29,317 nt of DNA from the IMG/VR virus record IMGVR_UViG_3300030451_004519, positions 2,182 through 31,498 of that record. One strand, written 5' to 3'. Source of the stretch: a virus. The translations under genes were made by a program, and so were the position numbers. The notes beneath the pieces are model-generated. The model was not told the origin of the DNA and did not search any database. It saw nothing but the letters and a program-made list of their open reading frames with translations. Positions 4,948 through 13,046 of this stretch are shown piece by piece (position 1 is the stretch's first letter; every line of letters starts with the position of its first letter).

Positions 4948-6978
4948 TTATTTAGAAGTTTTTCTATCAACACCATCCCATTCACCTTCAGGCATTGGGC
5001 GACTAATTCTTTCTGCATATAAATCAGCAAGTGTATTATTCCATTTGTGTTCTCTGAGTATTGAGATTTGATGAGCACAATCACTCCACAACCTGTCTTG
5101 GTAAAAATCTACCATACGTTGTACAGTCCTTGCATACTTATGATTATCCAATATAGTGTAGATGCTGACAGGTTCTGTTTGTCCTTTTACAGCAACTTTG
5201 TCTAATAATACTGTGCCTTCGACACGTTGTATTTGTTTTAGTGTGTGTTCAGTAAACATAAAAAACACACCATATTCCTTAGTTTGTGCTTCTAATCTTG
5301 CGGCGAGGTTAACACTATCTCCGAGCACGGTATAGTCGAATCTCTGGTCACTTCCCATGTTACCAACAACAGCATCGCCAGTGTTAATACCGATACCAAT
5401 GTTGAGTTCAATGAGTCCTTGTTCACGTAGTTCCTTATTTAATTTTGCCAATGCTGGCTCCATAGCCCTTGCTGTATCAACGGCTTGTTGAGCATGGTCT
5501 TCTATATCTAACGGTGCTCCCCAAATTGCCATTAGAGCATCTCCAATATACTTGTCTATTGTTCCGTTCTTCTCCATAACTAAGTCTGTCATAGGTGTCA
5601 TGTATTTGTTAATTAGTTTGCCTAGTCCTTGTGGATCTGTTTTAAACTGTTCACTAATAGGAGTAAAGCCACGTATATCTGAAAACAAATATGTCATTGT
5701 TTTTGTTTCGCCACCTAACTGTAGCAGTTCTGGATTCTTTTGTAATTTTTTAACCATTGCTGGAGCAAGGTAATGTTCAAACTGTTTCTTAATTTGTTCA
5801 CGCAACTTAAACTGTATCCAAAAGTTATTGAAACTTGCTTGAGAAAATATTAAAAACGTTGCTAACACAGGAAATGTAGCATCAAATAAAACCAAATTAG
5901 CAGTATAAGAATGTACACTATAATATACAATTCCGCCCAAAATAGTAACTGTAGTTACTAATCCTGCCCATATAGGTAACTTATATATTGCAAGGGCAAC
6001 TAATATCATGCTCAACAAGGCGCCTAAGAGTTCATATAAAGCACTTAATTCATTTCGCTGTATGTTTGATCCATCTATAAAATTTTGTAGCATATGGCCC
6101 TGTATTTGTTGTGGATATAAGTTGCCACGTGGAGTTGGTACAGGATTTGCAATCCCTTCTGCTGTAACTCCTATAATAACAAATTTACCTGTAAGGTCTG
6201 GTAGGCTATTAAGGTCAGTATATTCTACTTCTTCAAACGTATTATTAAATCTTATAAATGCAGAACCGTCAGGTTGAGTAACAATAGGATCAAAAGGAGG
6301 TACTGCAAATTCTTGTATTCCAATTTCACTTGTCTTTAACATGTAACTAGGCTTCTGCGTAAACACCCTTAACATTTCAACAGCAAAACTAGGATAAATT
6401 TTATCACCTACTGTAATAGCAAGTGGGTATGTTCTTGTTTGATTGTCAGGTTGTGGTGCTGATGCTATTACACCTATGCCTTCTGCATGTTCTTCAATCG
6501 ATGGAATGTTTGTTACTAGATTGGGCCATTTTAGCAAAGATTGGGTCGGGTTTGAAGGTCCAATCGTCCCTGTGCCAATGTGAGGACCGGAACTCCGAAT
6601 TCCTTTTGAAGAGGGGGTCTGGGACAAAACTATCCCGTTTCCTTTGATCCAACTCGCTAGAATCTCGTCTCCTCCAAATCGATCCTTCTCTGGATACATG
6701 ATGTTGAACCCAATTATACCAGCATTCTTCTGTCTGATATCGTGTATCATCTGTGCATAATTCTGTCTCGGCCATGGATATTGTCCCCAATGTTGTAGGC
6801 TTTTTTCGCCAATGTTTATTATAGCAACTTCGTTGCTTTGTTTTACTTCATCAAATTGTTGTAAGTAATCGAATGTTTGCATTCGAAGACTTTGTAATGG
6901 TGTAGGGTCAGCAACTTTTAGTGCCGTAAGTAATAATATAGATATTGCTACGGCCCAGCCGCTGTATAACCATTTCAT
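4948..6978 (-). CDS. CHASE2-domain membrane adenylate cyclase (class III)
   Basis: A 676-residue sensor cyclase. The order is an N-terminal membrane helix (about 5-22), a periplasmic CHASE2 sensor domain (about 30-305), three membrane helices (about 310-380), and a class III catalytic domain (about 420-570). Catalytic residues are intact: metal-binding Asp434 (LFSDIRGFT) and Asp480 (YIGDALMAIW), substrate-binding Lys476, and Asn557/Arg561 (VNLAARLE). Thr550 (in YTVLG) replaces the usual adenine-specifying Asp, which is typical of class IIIb cyclases. It should convert ATP to cAMP in the cytoplasm in response to an external signal. The reading frame is open to an ATG at 7017, but that lies inside the terminator of the preceding gene and upstream of the late promoter, so I choose the ATG at 6978. 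Very unusual in a phage; the ~100 residues after the catalytic domain are unassigned. Confidence 0.93.
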   Translation of the reverse strand: MKWLYSGWAVAISILLLTALKVADPTPLQSLRMQTFDYLQQFDEVKQSNEVAIINIGEKSLQHWGQYPWPRQNYAQMIHDIRQKNAGIIGFNIMYPEKDRFGGDEILASWIKGNGIVLSQTPSSKGIRSSGPHIGTGTIGPSNPTQSLLKWPNLVTNIPSIEEHAEGIGVIASAPQPDNQTRTYPLAITVGDKIYPSFAVEMLRVFTQKPSYMLKTSEIGIQEFAVPPFDPIVTQPDGSAFIRFNNTFEEVEYTDLNSLPDLTGKFVIIGVTAEGIANPVPTPRGNLYPQQIQGHMLQNFIDGSNIQRNELSALYELLGALLSMILVALAIYKLPIWAGLVTTVTILGGIVYYSVHSYTANLVLFDATFPVLATFLIFSQASFNNFWIQFKLREQIKKQFEHYLAPAMVKKLQKNPELLQLGGETKTMTYLFSDIRGFTPISEQFKTDPQGLGKLINKYMTPMTDLVMEKNGTIDKYIGDALMAIWGAPLDIEDHAQQAVDTARAMEPALAKLNKELREQGLIELNIGIGINTGDAVVGNMGSDQRFDYTVLGDSVNLAARLEAQTKEYGVFFMFTEHTLKQIQRVEGTVLLDKVAVKGQTEPVSIYTILDNHKYARTVQRMVDFYQDRLWSDCAHQISILREHKWNNTLADLYAERISRPMPEGEWDGVDRKTSK

Positions 6979-6983
6979 AAAGA

Positions 6984-6991
6984 TATTTATC
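6984..6991 (-). promoter_or_regulatory. Late-type promoter GATAAATA before the cyclase
   Basis: GATAAATA (6991-6984) is followed by TCTTT and then the ATG at 6978. With T4 geometry the start point is the A of the ATG, giving a leaderless mRNA. A TTGACA lies 7 nt further upstream (7004-6999) but has no -10 box at the right distance. Confidence 0.7.
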
Positions 6992-7006
6992 GTATTTTTG
7001 TCAAGA

Positions 7007-7031
7007 AAAAGCGGCACATAGTACCGCTTTT
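7007..7031 (-). terminator. Rho-independent terminator after the lipoprotein gene
   Basis: AAAAGCGG (7031-7024 on the minus strand) pairs with CCGCTTTT (7014-7007) around a 9-nt loop, followed by more T. It lies 30 nt beyond the stop of the frameshifted product and just upstream of the cyclase promoter, so it separates the two units. Confidence 0.75.
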
Positions 7032-7060
7032 AATTATAATTTACTGTAGGAAAAAAGTAA

Positions 7061-7171
7061 TTATTCGCACTCTTTTGGATTTTCTGAACAGTATTTCATT
7101 ATACTCTTAACAAGTATTTTGATATCTGCATCATCTATGCCATTCTTATCTGAATGGCTTATCCCTTTTTT
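7061..7171 (-). CDS. -1 frame extension of the lipoprotein gene (programmed frameshift product)
   Basis: Directly overlapping the end of the lipoprotein gene, the -1 frame is open for 34 codons (GISHSDKNGIDDADIKIL...CSENPKECE) and ends at TAA 7063-7061. It has no plausible start codon of its own except an internal ATG 12 codons from its end. The junction carries A AAA AAG in the lipoprotein frame (7171-7165), a 6-nt spacer and a perfect 7-bp hairpin. Frameshifting would give a protein of about 129 residues. The extension contains a D-x-N-G-x-x-D-x-x-D stretch reminiscent of a short calcium-binding loop, and two Cys near its end. The alternative is a homopolymer miscount of one A. Confidence 0.55.
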   Translation of the reverse strand, partial: KKGISHSDKNGIDDADIKILVKSIMKYCSENPKECE

Positions 7172-7183
7172 GCTTCGTTACCT
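7139..7183 (-). promoter_or_regulatory. -1 ribosomal frameshift signal
   Basis: Read on the minus strand: an SD-like AAGG ending at 7181; 9 nt; the slippery heptamer A AAA AAG (7171-7165) in phase with the lipoprotein codons GCA AAA AAG; 6 nt (GGATAA, containing the 0-frame stop); then GCCATTC (7158-7152), loop AGATAA, GAATGGC (7145-7139). This is the same arrangement as the dnaX-type signal of bacteria: slippery site, stem-loop and upstream internal SD. Confidence 0.65.
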
Positions 7184-7449
7184 TTTTCTTCGTCTTGCAA
7201 TTCGTCGGTTTGATTATCGATTTCTTCACTGACAGTTTCTATTACACCACTAGAGACTTTCGCCGCTGTTGCTGTAATATCTGACACATCTGTTAAGACT
7301 GCTGTACTAACTGTAGCAACACCTTTTACAGAACTATCAATTACACCTGTTGTGAAATCTTTCCCACCTTCAATAACTGCTCCAACTGAGGCACATGATG
7401 GTAGTAATACTAAACCAAGGACTCCAAGAAGTGAATACAATTTATTCAT
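7159..7449 (-). CDS. Small lipoprotein (0-frame product)
   Basis: A 96-residue precursor with a lipoprotein signal peptide: basic start, hydrophobic core and lipobox LLPSC (Cys19). The mature part is rich in Val, Thr, Ser and Ala (GVIDSSVKGVATVSTAVLTD) and looks amphipathic. It then ends in a very acidic, Glu-rich tail. Its size and make-up recall entericidin-like small lipoproteins or phage lysis lipoproteins, but I cannot assign it. The ATG has a clear CAGGAGAAG ribosome site and a 42-nt leader from the GATAAATA promoter at 7497-7504. The last codons form a -1 frameshift site, so a longer form probably exists too. A terminator follows. Confidence 0.85.
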   Translation of the reverse strand: MNKLYSLLGVLGLVLLPSCASVGAVIEGGKDFTTGVIDSSVKGVATVSTAVLTDVSDITATAAKVSSGVIETVSEEIDNQTDELQDEEKGNEAKKG

Positions 7450-7496
7450 ATCTTCTCCTGATTATAAGTTATAAGCCAACTGCTATATAACTATAA

Positions 7497-7504
7497 TATT
7501 TATC
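7497..7504 (-). promoter_or_regulatory. Late-type promoter GATAAATA before the lipoprotein gene
   Basis: GATAAATA (7504-7497) is followed by TTATAG. The predicted start is near 7491, about 42 nt before the ATG at 7449, with an AGGAGA ribosome site between. It overlaps the intergenic space just after the 109-aa gene. Confidence 0.75.
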
Positions 7505-7515
7505 TTTATAACTGT

Positions 7516-7845
7516 TTATATTCTGTATTCGTGTATAGGGTCACCACCTAAACTATGTAGGTCATGATACCATAACTCTTGCAAAAGTAGTTTTCTTGTG
7601 GCTTCGTATTCTGTAGCATTGATTAATGCTATTAGATTATCTCTATTTGATTTTTCTACTTGATATGTTAATTCTATCCATTTATACAAAATATAAAATG
7701 TTGCAGGAACAAAAATTAAACCTATTGCAGTTTCTGGATAAAAATATGCAAATACTAAAAAGTGTAAACCAATTACAGTTGCTAGTTGAATATGTACAGA
7801 ACGTACATATTGCTGAATTCCGTTATTAACCTTTTCCTGCTTCAT
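7516..7845 (-). CDS. Small membrane protein, 109 aa
   Basis: A short basic N terminus is followed by two hydrophobic helices (around VHIQLATVIGLHFLVFAYFY and AIGLIFVPATFYILYKWI) and a charged C-terminal helix ending in HEYRI, so both ends are probably cytoplasmic. I do not recognise the family. The frame is open upstream to an ATG at 7875 and a TTG at 7896. The ATG at 7845 is preferred because the preceding 55-aa gene covers the upstream part and overlaps this start by 20 nt, pointing to coupled translation. It could belong to the lysis or membrane-remodelling functions, but nothing specific shows this. Confidence 0.65.
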   Translation of the reverse strand: MKQEKVNNGIQQYVRSVHIQLATVIGLHFLVFAYFYPETAIGLIFVPATFYILYKWIELTYQVEKSNRDNLIALINATEYEATRKLLLQELWYHDLHSLGGDPIHEYRI

Positions 7846-7993
7846 TAAAAATTTTTTCTTTGAACTCAGTGCCATGCCAATAACTATCCAATCCAATATC
7901 TACCATTAATGCAATTAATACTAAAGTCATAATTACACATAGGTAAAAATTAATAAACGCAGATATTTTCATCCACTTGATTAGATGTTTCAT
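7826..7993 (-). CDS. Small membrane protein, 55 aa
   Basis: A 55-codon gene starting MKHLIKWMKISAFINFYLCV, with one long hydrophobic helix (about residues 11-32) flanked by basic residues and a charged C terminus (HGTEFKEKIFNEAGKG). It is not a recognised family. The ATG has no ribosome site; it lies 6 nt after the TATAAT of an excellent sigma70 promoter, so the transcript should be leaderless. Its 3' end overlaps the next membrane-protein gene in a different frame. Support comes from the promoter geometry and overlap rather than homology. Confidence 0.65.
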   Translation of the reverse strand: MKHLIKWMKISAFINFYLCVIMTLVLIALMVDIGLDSYWHGTEFKEKIFNEAGKG

Positions 7994-7999
7994 AGATAT

Positions 8000-8028
8000 A
8001 TTATAAGATAAAATTATTTAGAAGTCAA
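8000..8028 (-). promoter_or_regulatory. Near-consensus sigma70 promoter
   Basis: TTGACT (8028-8023), a 17-nt spacer and TATAAT (8005-8000) on the minus strand, immediately after the stop of the second curlin gene. The predicted start is the A of the ATG at 7993. It gives the two small membrane proteins host-polymerase (probably early) expression, unlike the late-type promoter used by the curli-like operon. Confidence 0.85.
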
Positions 8029-8031
8029 CCG

Positions 8032-8937
8032 TTAATCTTGCGTAATTGTTATAGAACATCCACCAGCAGTTTGGCATGTTTGATTAAGGTTGTAAGTTTG
8101 TGCTGTACCACTGTTTTGTGTTAAATTTAAAGTGGTCGGTTGTGATCCATACAAAGTAATATTGGCAGTATGAGCACCATTACCTTTTTGTACGCCACTA
8201 ATTTGACTGCCGTTTTGATAACTTTTATAGTTTACAGTTTTGTTTCCATCGTTAATTTGTTTCCACCAAATATCTTGATTGTTACCATATATCCATATAT
8301 TTGCAGTATGAAATCCTGGATTACTTGTGTTTCCATTTGTTTGATATCCAGCAATAACATTGTTGTCTCCATGATAGTCTAATATTACTTTATGTCCACC
8401 ATGCTCACTGCTATCGCCTTCGTTAAATGTTGTATCACTTATGTTGTTTAGTCCAACACCTTGACCCCATCTCATAAGATTGTTGTCTCCCCAAACGTGA
8501 AAACCTGCTTCTGAATATTGGCAACTTCCATCTTCTGTACATTTTTGTTTTATGTAAACATCATTGTCTACACCATCTATATCACCACAAAATGTTGCGT
8601 TTGGACAGTTTACTTTACCCCATGTACTAGTAAATCCAGCAAAATTATTTTGTCCTTCTTGTGCAATTTTTACTAGGTTACCATCACCTGATACTGAAAA
8701 TTCAACATCGTTATCTTCTCCTAGTTGTCCAATCCACATAGTTAAATTATCGACATTACCATATTGTAGTCCTAACTCCAAGTCAATGTGTTGCCCTTTA
8801 CCTTCTTGTAAAATTGTTAATTCTAAGTTGTCACCAACTTGGTCAATATGAACGTGGTTGTGTTCAGGTCCAGCAAATGCATCATAACTTGCTGTAGCAC
8901 AAAATATTGCTAATAATGTTCCTAATATATATTTCAT
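8032..8937 (-). CDS. Curlin-repeat protein B (secreted amyloid-like subunit)
   Basis: A 301-residue precursor with a signal peptide cleaved near ASYDAFA (residue 22). The mature protein is built of curlin-like strand-turn repeats with Q-x-G-x-x-N spacing, best seen at HIDQVGDNLELTILQEGKGQ, in DNLTMWIGQLGEDN, and in DGNLVKIAQEGQNN. Curlins such as CsgA/CsgB are exported through CsgG and form cross-beta fibres outside the cell. It is about twice as long as E. coli CsgA. It has three Cys pairs and ends in C-x5-C then SITITQD, an ending like those of the FecR-like protein and curlin A. Its ATG directly follows the FecR stop (TAGATG). Last gene of the operon; it could act as the nucleator or main subunit. 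Confidence 0.82.
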   Translation of the reverse strand: MKYILGTLLAIFCATASYDAFAGPEHNHVHIDQVGDNLELTILQEGKGQHIDLELGLQYGNVDNLTMWIGQLGEDNDVEFSVSGDGNLVKIAQEGQNNFAGFTSTWGKVNCPNATFCGDIDGVDNDVYIKQKCTEDGSCQYSEAGFHVWGDNNLMRWGQGVGLNNISDTTFNEGDSSEHGGHKVILDYHGDNNVIAGYQTNGNTSNPGFHTANIWIYGNNQDIWWKQINDGNKTVNYKSYQNGSQISGVQKGNGAHTANITLYGSQPTTLNLTQNSGTAQTYNLNQTCQTAGGCSITITQD

Positions 8938-10134
8938 CTAATCTACCTGTATGATTGTAATAAATGTTCCTTCACAATCATTTAAACATATTGTAGCATC
9001 TTTTAAATTACTATCTTCTACAAATATTTGGGCACTATTACCTGAATTTATTCTAACACTTACTGTATTTGTTACTTGTCTAAAAAAGAATAATTTACCA
9101 TCTTCTAAGACTGTGTTAAATTGTGTTTCAGGATCAAACCCTATTGCAGTACCTGTAATTTTATCTGCGGCTAATCTACCTTCAGATTCGCTACCACTAT
9201 CTCCACTATCTTCTTCTACACTTACTTCTTCTATTTCTTCAAGTAAGTCTTGTAAAAAATCAACGTCTAAAAAATTAATATCTAACGTTGAAAATTCTAA
9301 ATCTTCTGTTGTGTCTGCTAATACATCTGCTTCAATGGCATTAGCATCTAATCCGTCGAAGTCTAAGAGTCCAGCATCACCTTTTAATTGTTCTTGTTGT
9401 TCCTCTTTTGCTTCTACAATCTCTTCTGGCTCACTGACAATAAACATATTGTCTATCATATTCAAATCCAAATCTGCTAAAATAACAGGATTTGTTGGAG
9501 CCTGTTCATATGTACTAACCATAACAGCCTGAAAGGCTTCAGTTAATACTTGCACACCACCGTCATTTGTAATTGTTATACTACCCGATGGTCTGCAACC
9601 TTCCTCCAATTTTACTGTATCTGTACAGCCTGAGTCTGGTAATAGTATTACTAGACTTCTGCCTAACTCATCAACAGTAGTTGTAAAGTCAGTACCCCTA
9701 ATACCAATTGTGGCTGTAGGAGTTTGTACGACTATATTTTCCTTTGGCACCAATCCTAATCCACCAGTGGCAAAACGTGCCGTTCCTTGCACAAAATCTA
9801 ATGCCATCCTGCTTTTACTTGGATCAGGATCGTACACATAATCATTTATAATCATATATGTGTGTTCAGTTAAACTTACCTGTGTATCATCGACAAACTT
9901 TAATTTTAAACGACCGTTAACCGTTTCAACTTCGTCCATGCTTTGTATGTCTGTGTCTAGTTCTGCAATCAATCTTTCACCAGACGTTCTACTAATACTT
10001 CCGGGTGAGCCAACTTGCTCAAATACTCCGCCTATACTCTCATTGGCATAGGCGGAAATACTATATGTTGCACTAAACAGCAAAAATGTGTATAAGCAAA
10101 CTTTAGTCAGTTTGTCTGATACTAACCGAAGCAT
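8938..10134 (-). CDS. Secreted FecR-domain protein in the curli-like operon
   Basis: A 398-residue precursor with an N-terminal signal peptide (cleavage near residue 30, SISAYA). A FecR domain follows (about 35-200), with its hallmark TPTATIGIRGTDF at 138-150. Then comes a long acidic, low-complexity region (about 230-320) and a C-terminal beta segment ending CLNDCEGTFITIIQVD. Classical FecR spans the inner membrane and controls a sigma factor; here there is no cytoplasmic anti-sigma part and no sigma gene, so a periplasmic or exported structural role is more likely. The C-terminal Cys pair and QVD ending match those of both neighbouring curlins, suggesting the same export route. It overlaps the end of curlin A by about 32 nt. 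A GTG at 10140 is an alternative start. Confidence 0.83.
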   Translation of the reverse strand: MLRLVSDKLTKVCLYTFLLFSATYSISAYANESIGGVFEQVGSPGSISRTSGERLIAELDTDIQSMDEVETVNGRLKLKFVDDTQVSLTEHTYMIINDYVYDPDPSKSRMALDFVQGTARFATGGLGLVPKENIVVQTPTATIGIRGTDFTTTVDELGRSLVILLPDSGCTDTVKLEEGCRPSGSITITNDGGVQVLTEAFQAVMVSTYEQAPTNPVILADLDLNMIDNMFIVSEPEEIVEAKEEQQEQLKGDAGLLDFDGLDANAIEADVLADTTEDLEFSTLDINFLDVDFLQDLLEEIEEVSVEEDSGDSGSESEGRLAADKITGTAIGFDPETQFNTVLEDGKLFFFRQVTNTVSVRINSGNSAQIFVEDSNLKDATICLNDCEGTFITIIQVD

Positions 10135-10924
10135 TTTCACTATCTAAATCAACGTCAATTTTACCAGTACAGGCAGGAGTACACGATGCCGCATTACTTT
10201 GTAAAAATTGGAAATCACCATCTGAACCTACTAAAACAAATTTTAAGTAATGGTTAGAGTTACCAGTTTGATTTGATGTAATAGCATTATCGTCACCAGT
10301 AATGTTCATTTCCCAAGTTGCGGAACCGGCGTCAACCTTAACACCACTTTGTGAAAAAGCGGCAGTATTGTTCCAATCAGAACCAGGAGTACCACTCCAT
10401 GCTCTTGAGTTAGAAACAGCACTTCTAAAGTCGTTCCTGTCACCTAGTATTGTTAAATCCATATTGAGGTTGTCTGCGGCATAGTTACCACCAATATCTA
10501 CATCAAAAATGTTTGTATCACCTTGAACATTCCAAAGCATGTCAACATTATCTGCACTACCAGTTGCACCTATGTTTAAATCTAATGAATTAGAATCTCC
10601 TAAAAAGTAGAAATCCCATACAGTTGATCCAGAACCGTCTCCAGTCCATGCACCAAATATTTCATTACCATCACCGTCTTGAATGATATCAATAATCAAG
10701 TTAGATCCTGTAATAACTAAATCGCTACCATCAGAAGCATCACCTGATAATTTGTTACCACTACCAGCCTGTAATATAGTCAAAGTCAAATTATCACCTT
10801 GTTGGTCTAACAAAACTTCGTTATCGTCAGCACCTAAGGCAGGAGCAAAAATTCCAAGTCCTAGGCCCATAACAGCGAAGACATTGATTGCAAAATTTCT
10901 AAAGAAATTATTTTTAGTCTTCAT
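10103..10924 (-). CDS. Curlin-repeat protein A (secreted amyloid-like subunit)
   Basis: A 273-residue precursor with a signal peptide (cleavage near APALG, residue 31) and degenerate curlin repeats: VLLDQQGDNLTLTILQAGSG, then IIDIIQDGDGNEI, GDSNSLDL, GDTNIFDV, GDRNDF and GDDNAITSNQTGNSN. It is rich in Asn, Asp, Gly and Ser, and starts like curlin B (DQxGDNLxLTILQxGxG), so the two are paralogues. It ends C-x3-C, a spacer, then SVSIRQTD. The ATG at 10924 has an excellent GGAG site 6-7 nt upstream and overlaps the csgG stop by 11 nt; an upstream ATG at 10936 has no ribosome site. The product should pass through the CsgG pore encoded just before it. Confidence 0.82.
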   Translation of the reverse strand: MKTKNNFFRNFAINVFAVMGLGLGIFAPALGADDNEVLLDQQGDNLTLTILQAGSGNKLSGDASDGSDLVITGSNLIIDIIQDGDGNEIFGAWTGDGSGSTVWDFYFLGDSNSLDLNIGATGSADNVDMLWNVQGDTNIFDVDIGGNYAADNLNMDLTILGDRNDFRSAVSNSRAWSGTPGSDWNNTAAFSQSGVKVDAGSATWEMNITGDDNAITSNQTGNSNHYLKFVLVGSDGDFQFLQSNAASCTPACTGKIDVDLDSENASVSIRQTD

Positions 10925-11894
10925 TATTTTCTCCATTATTCTTTAAGAGCATTTTCTCCCAAAGTTTTTTATCGGCTTTGATGTCCTCTGGATCTATGTC
11001 TACTTTCATCCATGTTGCCTGTTCATCAGGAGAGAGTTCTTGAACTTCCCAGCCTTCCGGATAAACAATTTTCCAGTAACCCCTTTCATCGCCTTGTTGT
11101 ATCAATGCCAATACTGCGGCTTCAATAGCCGAACGTACTGCCCAAGTTACACTTTCATTCTCTGTCATACCACTTTCAAGTTCAAGAAGTTTTGTATCCA
11201 TATCTAAAAATCTAAACACATCGCCTCCTACACCTGTACTCAAAATGGTTTTGTATGTCTGTACGTTGAGTAACACTTCGCCAGTGAGTGTGCTTATGGC
11301 TCTCAGTGATACAACAACACTATCTCTTCGATATTGGTTTGTAGTTCCAATACCGAGATATCTTGCACCGTTACCGCCAGTCTCGATATTAGTATCATAA
11401 CCTATGATGCCTCCCTCTAATATCATGCCTGCGAATAACAATGGTTGGACTCCTTCTGCCGGTGCTTCTTCTGTGGCAAACTGTTCGCGAGTACTACGAA
11501 CAATTTGTCTTTCCCGGACAAGGTGGTCTAAGCCTACTCCTCTCTCTACGACTCTGAACCATGTGCCTTTAGGATTTTCTTTGGCACCTGCGGCTTTGAG
11601 AGAGTCAATTAATAAATCTTTTGCACCTTGTGTAACTGCGGTGCTGAAACTTGCAACTCCATCTGAACTTACTCTTTGTCCAGTTAAATCTGCAAAGTCA
11701 TAAACTGCAACCACTGGCATAACTTCAGCCGGTGGTAAGTTTCTTAATTTTTTATATGTGGGTAATTCTATAAATTGTGGTTCTTCTATACACTCAAGGA
11801 AATTTGAACCACAGGCTTTGTCACCAGGTATGGAAATACTGGCGCATCCGCTAATTAGCAAAGCAAATATTACTGCTATCAATCCTTGTTTCAA
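10914..11894 (-). CDS. csgG: CsgG-like outer-membrane curli secretion pore lipoprotein
   Basis: A 326-residue lipoprotein that follows E. coli CsgG along its length: lipobox LLISGC (Cys17), LPPAEVMPVVAVYDFADLTG, SFSTAVTQGAKDLLIDSLK, VVERGVGLDHLVRERQIVRS, LFAGMILEGGIIGYDTNI, GGNGARYLGIG, and the transmembrane-hairpin region up to KTILSTGVGGDVFRFLD. CsgG forms a nonameric channel in the outer membrane that exports curlins. It is about 50 residues longer than CsgG, with an acidic extra C-terminal tail and an inserted Cys-x7-Cys after the lipobox. The only possible start is TTG at 11894, since an in-frame stop lies four codons upstream. It starts 4 nt after the csgF stop and overlaps curlin A at its end. 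Confidence 0.95.
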   Translation of the reverse strand: MKQGLIAVIFALLISGCASISIPGDKACGSNFLECIEEPQFIELPTYKKLRNLPPAEVMPVVAVYDFADLTGQRVSSDGVASFSTAVTQGAKDLLIDSLKAAGAKENPKGTWFRVVERGVGLDHLVRERQIVRSTREQFATEEAPAEGVQPLLFAGMILEGGIIGYDTNIETGGNGARYLGIGTTNQYRRDSVVVSLRAISTLTGEVLLNVQTYKTILSTGVGGDVFRFLDMDTKLLELESGMTENESVTWAVRSAIEAAVLALIQQGDERGYWKIVYPEGWEVQELSPDEQATWMKVDIDPEDIKADKKLWEKMLLKNNGENNED

Positions 11895-11898
11895 ATTT

Positions 11899-12387
11899 TT
11901 ACCCGCCTAATGTTCCGATTCCGATAGGTATTTCTATTTCCGTAATTGTTCCATCTGCGTCAACAATAGTCAGTTTTATATATTCTATGCCGTCTACTGT
12001 AATTACCTGGTATGAGACGTTACTGTCTTCAATAGTAAATGCACCTTCGGTAGAATTAGTACAAGTTGGTACTTCTGCAGGATTACAAAACATACTATCA
12101 ACTAATCCTTTAGAAATTTGTGAATAGATCCTACTCTCCAAATTTCTAATAAATTTATTAATAGTGCTGTTAGATTCTGCTCTTTCAGCCGCCCTTAAAG
12201 CCGCTTCAATATCATCTCTTATTTTATCTTTTCTACTCTTCTCCTGATTTTCGATTGTTAAATAATGAGCTCCAGTTCCTATTCCACTAAAACTAGGGTT
12301 CTTAAATTTATGTGTAAGTTTGTCAGCAGATGCTGTCATACTGCCAAATGCAAACATTACAACTAAAAAATAATTTAAAATTTTCAT
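11899..12387 (-). CDS. csgF: CsgF-like curli assembly factor
   Basis: A 162-residue precursor with a signal peptide (cleavage near TASA, residue 21). The mature N terminus LTHKFKNPSFSG...HYL matches the CsgF segment (TFQFRNPNFGG in E. coli) that inserts into the CsgG pore and forms its second constriction. The middle is helical, and the C terminus ends in beta strands with a Cys-x7-Cys (FCNPAEVPTC) not present in E. coli CsgF. CsgF caps the pore and helps nucleate fibres at the surface. Its ATG overlaps the stop of the upstream small gene (ATGA), and csgG follows by 4 nt, so pore and cap are made together. Confidence 0.85.
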   Translation of the reverse strand: MKILNYFLVVMFAFGSMTASADKLTHKFKNPSFSGIGTGAHYLTIENQEKSRKDKIRDDIEAALRAAERAESNSTINKFIRNLESRIYSQISKGLVDSMFCNPAEVPTCTNSTEGAFTIEDSNVSYQVITVDGIEYIKLTIVDADGTITEIEIPIGIGTLGG

Positions 12388-12686
12388 TTCTTTTTCTTTT
12401 CAGCCTGCTCTTTTTCAGCAAGGGCCTCCTTTTCTTCTGCGTCCTGCAAAATTTCTTGTCGTGTTCTATATTCTAAAACTACGTCTACTTTCTGTTGCAA
12501 ACGAATTAAGTCTTGATCCAACATTCTTGTTTGGTCTATTACTCTAATAAGTGCCATATGCATTTTACCTAATGCGGGTTTTATTTCACTATTAATATAT
12601 TTCCATACATAGTAAATAAAGTACCCTAAGCCAACACAGGCAACGACTGGAAATCCATATTGAGAGATTAATTGTGCTACGTCCAT
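12384..12686 (-). CDS. Small membrane-anchored coiled-coil protein (paralogue 2)
   Basis: A 100-residue protein with one N-terminal membrane helix (QYGFPVVACVGLGYFIYYVW), then a charged, probably coiled-coil helix and a Lys/Glu-rich tail ending in KKKK. It is a paralogue of the gene just upstream: both begin with a short polar stretch, then GFP, a Gly/Ala-rich helix and GYFI. The fold plan resembles BhlA/YvrJ-type small phage proteins (holin-like), but no function is shown. The start overlaps the upstream stop (TAATG) with a strong AAGGAGAG site, and its stop overlaps the csgF ATG, so it belongs to the same coupled operon as the pore. Confidence 0.75.
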   Translation of the reverse strand: MDVAQLISQYGFPVVACVGLGYFIYYVWKYINSEIKPALGKMHMALIRVIDQTRMLDQDLIRLQQKVDVVLEYRTRQEILQDAEEKEALAEKEQAEKKKK

Positions 12687-12982
12687 TAATCTCTCCTTAC
12701 ATCGAGTTTTCCGTCCTCAATAAAGTTTTCTGCCCTGGCTACTCGTTCTATATCAGGTCTTAATTCCAAAGCAGAACTTACTAACATATCGATTTTAATC
12801 ATCTCATTGCTCATTGTTCTTGCTCTATTTTCTAATGATTCACAAAACTTAGTCAAAGTTTCGACCTGACCGACGACACCGGCCATTAATTGCTTAATTA
12901 TAATAAAGATAAAATAACCCATTACTATCGCTCCGGCAATAGGAAATCCTACCTCTGCTATTAATTGAAATACTTCGTTCAT
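12686..12982 (-). CDS. Small membrane-anchored coiled-coil protein (paralogue 1)
   Basis: A 98-residue protein: MNEVFQLIAEVGFPIAGAIV leads into a single membrane helix ending GYFIFIIIKQL, followed by a long helical region with regular hydrophobic spacing (LTKFCESLENRARTMSNEM). First gene of the curli-like operon. The frame also offers a GTG at 12988; the ATG at 12982 is chosen because it matches the start of its paralogue. A holin-like or membrane-scaffold role is possible (BhlA/YvrJ-like plan). Its coupling to csgF points instead to a partner of the secretion pore at the inner membrane. It follows a GATAAATA promoter with a leader of about 59 nt. Confidence 0.72.
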   Translation of the reverse strand: MNEVFQLIAEVGFPIAGAIVMGYFIFIIIKQLMAGVVGQVETLTKFCESLENRARTMSNEMIKIDMLVSSALELRPDIERVARAENFIEDGKLDVRRD

Positions 12983-13046
12983 TCGCACACTCTGTTTGTT
13001 ATATTTTTTATATGTAGTGTGATGTCTGTCTGTTACTCTACGCAGT

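Follow-up and report, generated by a model that had tools for sequence, protein, structure and literature searches.

Among the closest described counterparts of the site analysed here is that of Escherichia coli dnaX, which has the same slippery heptamer, A_AAA_AAG, and a downstream stem-loop at a short spacing. Among phages, the lambda-type tail assembly chaperone pair G/GT has the same kind of C-terminal −1 extension behind a slippery heptamer, and lambda's own G/GT frameshift site, G_GGA_AAG, is also found in one subgroup of the family described below. Both heptamers are highly shift-prone in E. coli, whose only tRNA-Lys can pair with AAG and pairs more strongly with AAA, according to the available text of PMC5009743. 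The same text describes a C-terminal frameshift extension near the end of the phage gene for the coat proteins of T7 (gene 10A/10B), T3 and A2, as well as a frameshift signal in cso2 that apparently has no 5' SD (PMC5009743). In the SEA-PHAGES set, 2397 of 2476 joined genes are tail assembly chaperones (PMC10885494), and the other phage frameshifts described in the available parts of these sources concern coat and tail proteins (PMC5009743, PMC10885494). In the locus presented here, a small lipoprotein gene from uncultured marine phages, one mRNA very probably yields two lipoproteins by programmed −1 ribosomal frameshifting, as judged from sequence comparison. In contrast to dnaX, frameshifting here would give the longer protein, with ordinary translation ending at the site, an upstream SD-like stimulator is not conserved, and the gene is that of a phage lipoprotein; unlike G/GT, it carries a lipoprotein signal and lies in a curli/cyclase module instead of among tail genes; and whereas the T7, T3 and A2 proteins are virion proteins, this one is a predicted envelope lipoprotein.

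The window, i.e., the whole stretch of 29,317 nucleotides that was analysed, covers the greater part of an IMG/VR virus record of 31.5 kb, which we take to originate from a T4-like phage on the basis of its gene content, including portal-, protease-, scaffold- and capsid-like proteins at 22.4–29 kb that were named by inspection. Curli (T8SS) genes, FecR, a CHASE2 cyclase and two small membrane-protein-like ORFs occupy positions 4948–12988. This puzzling curli (T8SS) module is known from pelagiphages. On the minus strand, the curlin-repeat, FecR, curlin-repeat, CsgG and CsgF genes (8032..12387; Pfam, with one of the two curlin-repeat matches scoring under Pfam's cut-off) lie upstream of the lipoprotein gene, and the CHASE2-adenylate/guanylate cyclase gene (4948..7017, minus strand; PF05226, PF00211) is its usual next neighbour downstream. 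The lipoprotein gene is positioned between the second curlin and the cyclase, in a module with the same gene order as that of the pelagiphage T8SS (CsgF, CsgG, curlin, FecR, curlin, adenylate cyclase) in the available text of PMC9599517. One of the small membrane-protein-like ORFs (7516–7896) is located directly upstream of the lipoprotein gene, and the same distance is seen in many relatives.

The 0-frame lipoprotein of 96 aa (7159..7449, minus strand; ATG at 7449, TAA at 7161–7159) has a signal peptide with an LPSC lipobox, recognised by inspection, and an AGGAG RBS just upstream. Its 3' end reads GCA AAA AAG GGA TAA, in which the heptamer A_AAA_AAG (7165..7171, minus strand) is in phase, 7171 being a third codon position, and, as an addition to the original prediction, a second in-phase heptamer, A_AAG_GGA, overlaps it directly before the stop. 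The 6-nt spacer GGATAA (7159..7164, minus strand) includes the 0-frame stop and is followed by a putative stimulatory hairpin (7139..7158, minus strand) with a perfect 7-bp stem, GCCATTC (7158–7152)/GAATGGC (7145–7139), and a 6-nt loop. The −1 extension (7061..7171, minus strand) consists of KK and 34 further codons, GISHSDKNGIDDADIKILVKSIMKYCSENPKECE, and ends in YCSENPKECE before the stop TAA at 7063–7061. The original prediction of these parts, together with an AAGG 9 nt upstream of the heptamer, was borne out when the coordinates were checked, and reading the frame from 7171 to 7061 confirmed 34 open codons without a start and a long form of 129 residues. The preceding stop in the −1 frame lies 9 nt upstream of the heptamer, with no ATG, GTG or TTG in between. 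The further claim of a dnaX-type signal in every part held for the heptamer, spacer and hairpin, which are kept in relatives, and failed for the SD-like AAGG (7181..7184, minus strand), which is probably incidental; an SD-like core was found in 4 of 41 members, the window included, and the element was rejected as part of the signal.

By themselves, the parts of the window's cassette are no more than moderately improbable. The window contains 13 copies of AAAAAAG, with 14.1 expected; the 91-nt local fold at the site has a z of −2.3, equalled by 4 of 200 shuffles; and in synonymous-codon controls the stem was matched by 6/200 and the fold by 2/100. The cassette stands above chance because it is conserved in relatives.

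A scan keyed to the lipoprotein gave 86 relatives, of which 80 were kept. When the C-terminal motif of the extension was the sole key, 62 loci were found, or 38 distinct lipoprotein/extension pairs; the pattern was built from an alignment of heptamer-bearing members, with which its matches overlap. The extension was in −1 in 36 of these 38 pairs, in +1/−2 in two and fused in none, and all 36 had an in-phase heptamer (30 A_AAA_AAG and 6 G_GGA_AAG) separated from the stop by 0 or 3 nt. Further scans required letters of the heptamer or the hairpin, and counts including them depend on the signal. Across all 325 sources, lipoprotein ORFs were paired with extension ORFs, the latter being counted only if they held C..[NKVIH]P..C, which yielded at least 58 distinct pairs; "distinct" refers to pairs that differ in the DNA running from 30 nt upstream of the 0-frame stop through the extension stop, and kinship among such pairs remains. 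From the 136 matches, L242, which is cut by a contig end, was left out, and L249 had no lipoprotein on its contig.

Among the matches listed, the 58 distinct pairs comprised 55 with the extension in −1, three in +1/−2 and none fused in one frame; fusion, which the original prediction had named as a refuting outcome in homologues, was therefore rejected for the relatives among the matches listed. An in-phase heptamer was present in 55/55 −1 members among the matches listed: 49 had A_AAA_AAG, including the window, which the pairing script labelled by its overlapping A_AAG_GGA, and six had G_GGA_AAG. In every −1 relative among the matches listed, the 0-frame stop came directly after the heptamer or 3 nt later. 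Homologues lacking the −1 extension, named there as refuting as well, do exist (36 of the 91 distinct lipoproteins placed in a tree), yet none of these 36 has A_AAA_AAG or G_GGA_AAG at its end. Three of the lipoproteins, L016–L018, located near L013–L015 in the tree, and also L082, have AAACAG for the heptamer and no extension, a natural joint loss of signal and tail. In 50,697 phage records, tblastn matched neither the lipoprotein nor the extension, and a scan of genome contigs with the lipoprotein alignment gave 30 pattern matches and no relative.

The hairpin was likewise kept, while its letters changed. The stem started at +5 to +9 nt, counted from the heptamer or stop codon, in 55/58 among the matches listed, and its arms varied by subgroup: GCCATTC/GAATGGC, GCTCATTCTTT/AGAGAGTGAGC, CTCTATCTTC/GAAGGTAGAG and CCTTCTTA/TAAGAAGG. 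In controls with amino acids fixed and synonymous codons redrawn, where a pass meant the best 5%, the stem passed in 35/41 members and in 45/58 among the matches listed (13/58 failed), and the fold passed in 48/58 among the matches listed, with a mean z of −2.58 (10/58 failed). In the GCTCATT group, 99.2% of cells were paired, compared with 50–63% in slid controls, most rows of this alignment coming from a scan that required GCTCATT in the 5' arm. Covariation was modest, with double changes in 2 of 11 pairs, two sequences each (CG/UA and UA/AU exchanges). A role of the hairpin as a terminator was rejected, the terminator search having found none.

The extension evolves as protein, with purifying selection on both halves of the long form. 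When all pairs were pooled, pN/pS after the 0-frame stop was 0.38 in the short subtype (11 members) and 0.42 in the long subtype (29 members), similar to the values of 0.41 and 0.44 for the 0-frame part, and it was 0.18 and 0.25 in pairs that were >85% identical. The extension ranges from 32 to 74 residues after KK, and in its alignment (n = 36) only K1, K2, Y27, C28, P32 and C35 (window numbering) were invariant. AlphaFold2 gave one helix for the short form (mean pLDDT 53) and, for the extension of a relative, a helix at 35–67 preceded by a loose N-terminal stretch (mean pLDDT 69). These models, of low confidence and too weak for fold searches, suggest a lipid-anchored helical protein, mostly short and partly with a helical tail ending in two cysteines.

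Four distinct members have the extension in +1/−2: L031/L342, L307/L366, L308/L345 and L328 (L328, L342, L345 and L366 on the reverse strand), of which L328 was found only by a scan requiring signal letters and stands outside the 58. Their site is GAA_AAG_AAG_TAR, the spacer is shorter by one nt, and the hairpin has 11–13 bp. These hairpins are the strongest of the family; 0/200 controls were as good in two members, and no more than 10/200 in all three tested. The letters would fit a −2 shift in which tRNA-Lys moves from AAG onto the AAA that overlaps it. Frameshifting by −2 is known in phage Mu, and the direction taken for one kind of extension apparently makes no difference to phages (PMC5009743, available text). 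In a tree that was poorly resolved (79 columns) and used only for the scatter of signal labels, the G_GGA_AAG and +1/−2 labels were each scattered, with at least 2 and 3 changes, respectively, forced by supported branches; recombination of the gene's end could also have caused this scatter. It is conceivable, if somewhat short of probable, that one family of marine-phage envelope lipoproteins keeps its extension and swaps the recoding signal, using A_AAA_AAG, G_GGA_AAG or, in L031, L307, L308 and L328, a −2 shift at GAA_AAG_AAG_TAR. If so, the dosage of the long, cysteine-tailed form would be a selected trait of a phage-encoded curli system. The family offers experimenters a natural series of signals for one extension, with two heptamers, many hairpins and a likely switch of direction.

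The shifted frame could be reached in other ways. RNA polymerase might add or drop a base at the A-run, such that part of the mRNA would encode the long protein normally; the run is of six A in the window and of six or seven in other members, and the protein outcome would be identical. However, the runs at the slip site among the 55 −1 members listed were six A in 42, seven A in seven and GGGAAAG in six, and no run among them reached the length of about 8–9 or more documented for bacterial transcriptional slippage (PMC3711429, PMC5009743, available text). This reading is disfavoured because the six distinct G_GGA_AAG members, in which no run exceeds three, keep the frame, the stop position and the hairpin, and the hairpin spacing suits a ribosome; we consider it very unlikely. 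The same six members, with G_GGA_AAG in place of A6G, argue against a sequencing or assembly error, or a decaying single ORF whose true gene has one frame. A homopolymer at the junction and a single metagenome contig would invite such a reading, but the break recurs at one and the same position in 58 distinct sequences among the matches listed and on many independent contigs, both halves are under purifying selection, and there is no fused relative, which leaves it with hardly any credibility.

Alternatively, the extension might be a gene of its own whose translation starts after the lipoprotein stop, through re-initiation or internal initiation. Some extensions contain an internal ATG, and three of the four distinct +1/−2 members have an ATG upstream in the extension frame. 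In the −1 members, on the other hand, the −1 frame from the preceding stop to the heptamer has no ATG, GTG or TTG in any of the 55 among the matches listed, and internal initiation was rejected for them on this count. Conservation starts at the heptamer, and L328 has no upstream start codon in the extension frame, so internal initiation fails there as well; a separate gene is accordingly most improbable. Programmed −1 frameshifting agrees with what was found: an in-phase X_XXY_YYZ at the end of the 0 frame, a stem-loop about 5–9 nt downstream, and a selected shifted frame without a start.

According to the proposed −1 frameshifting, most ribosomes would end at the TAA at 7161–7159 and release the 96-residue short form. 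The hairpin 6 nt downstream would pause a minority of ribosomes, on which tRNA-Lys would slip back one base on A_AAA_AAG, and 34 more codons would be read to give the 129-residue form. Once the protein is lipidated, its tail would point into the periplasm, and the two invariant cysteines there might join to form a loop. In the outer membrane, the short and long forms would occur at a set ratio and serve the curli/T8SS module or another envelope function. The cassette, its conservation, the selection on the extension and the absence of start codons are facts at the level of sequence, from which we infer that slippage occurs and yields less of the long form than of the short one.

Regarding function, we infer a role in the curli module from association only. 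Cyclase or curli genes were near the lipoprotein gene in 51 of the 58 distinct members among the matches listed; the cyclase was present in 32/37 members with at least 2.5 kb of downstream sequence read, and curlin, FecR or CsgG in 11/17 members with at least 2.5 kb of upstream sequence read. Such neighbours were not seen in 7/58 members among the matches listed (L284, L270, L013, L014, L002, L003 and L305), CsgG was not seen on two long contigs (110 and 80 kb, possibly incomplete), and the lipoprotein gene is absent from the curli modules of the cultured HTVC008M and Melnitz. In L013 and L014, it lies just after the capsid gene and curli or cyclase genes were not seen; thus, the lipoprotein may not depend on curli. 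Small phage lipoproteins with roles in superinfection exclusion or lysis are known, e.g., T5 Llp and the spanins, and members adjoining the major capsid gene would suit a superinfection-exclusion or lysis-timing lipoprotein, not a curli accessory, whose long form tunes or antagonises the short one. This function, which is compatible with frameshifting, seems possible and rather doubtful, since most members sit with cyclase or curli genes and no family match for either role was found in Pfam or PHROGs. Pfam gave no match in 29 members, and hence no homology to a known Csg protein; PHROGs gave weak matches only, with no convincing family, and by both searches no homology to tail assembly chaperones was found.

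The mechanism is known, and the gene family and location are new as far as the literature searches reach. No frameshifted phage lipoprotein was found in searches of open-access papers, and the words "lipoprotein" and "frameshift" are absent from the main text, as available, of PMC9599517, PMC7029224 and PMC9004378. With a predicted envelope lipoprotein, mostly encoded within the curli module, as the carrier of a conserved frameshift, recoding would reach a function at the phage–host interface, and ordinary gene calling would miss the long form. Elsewhere in the window, ARAGORN detected a tRNA-Ala (1115–1190) and a tRNA-Ser (1217–1306) gene; the listed ORF at 856–1200 starts over the tRNA-Ala gene, and therefore its first part is probably non-coding.
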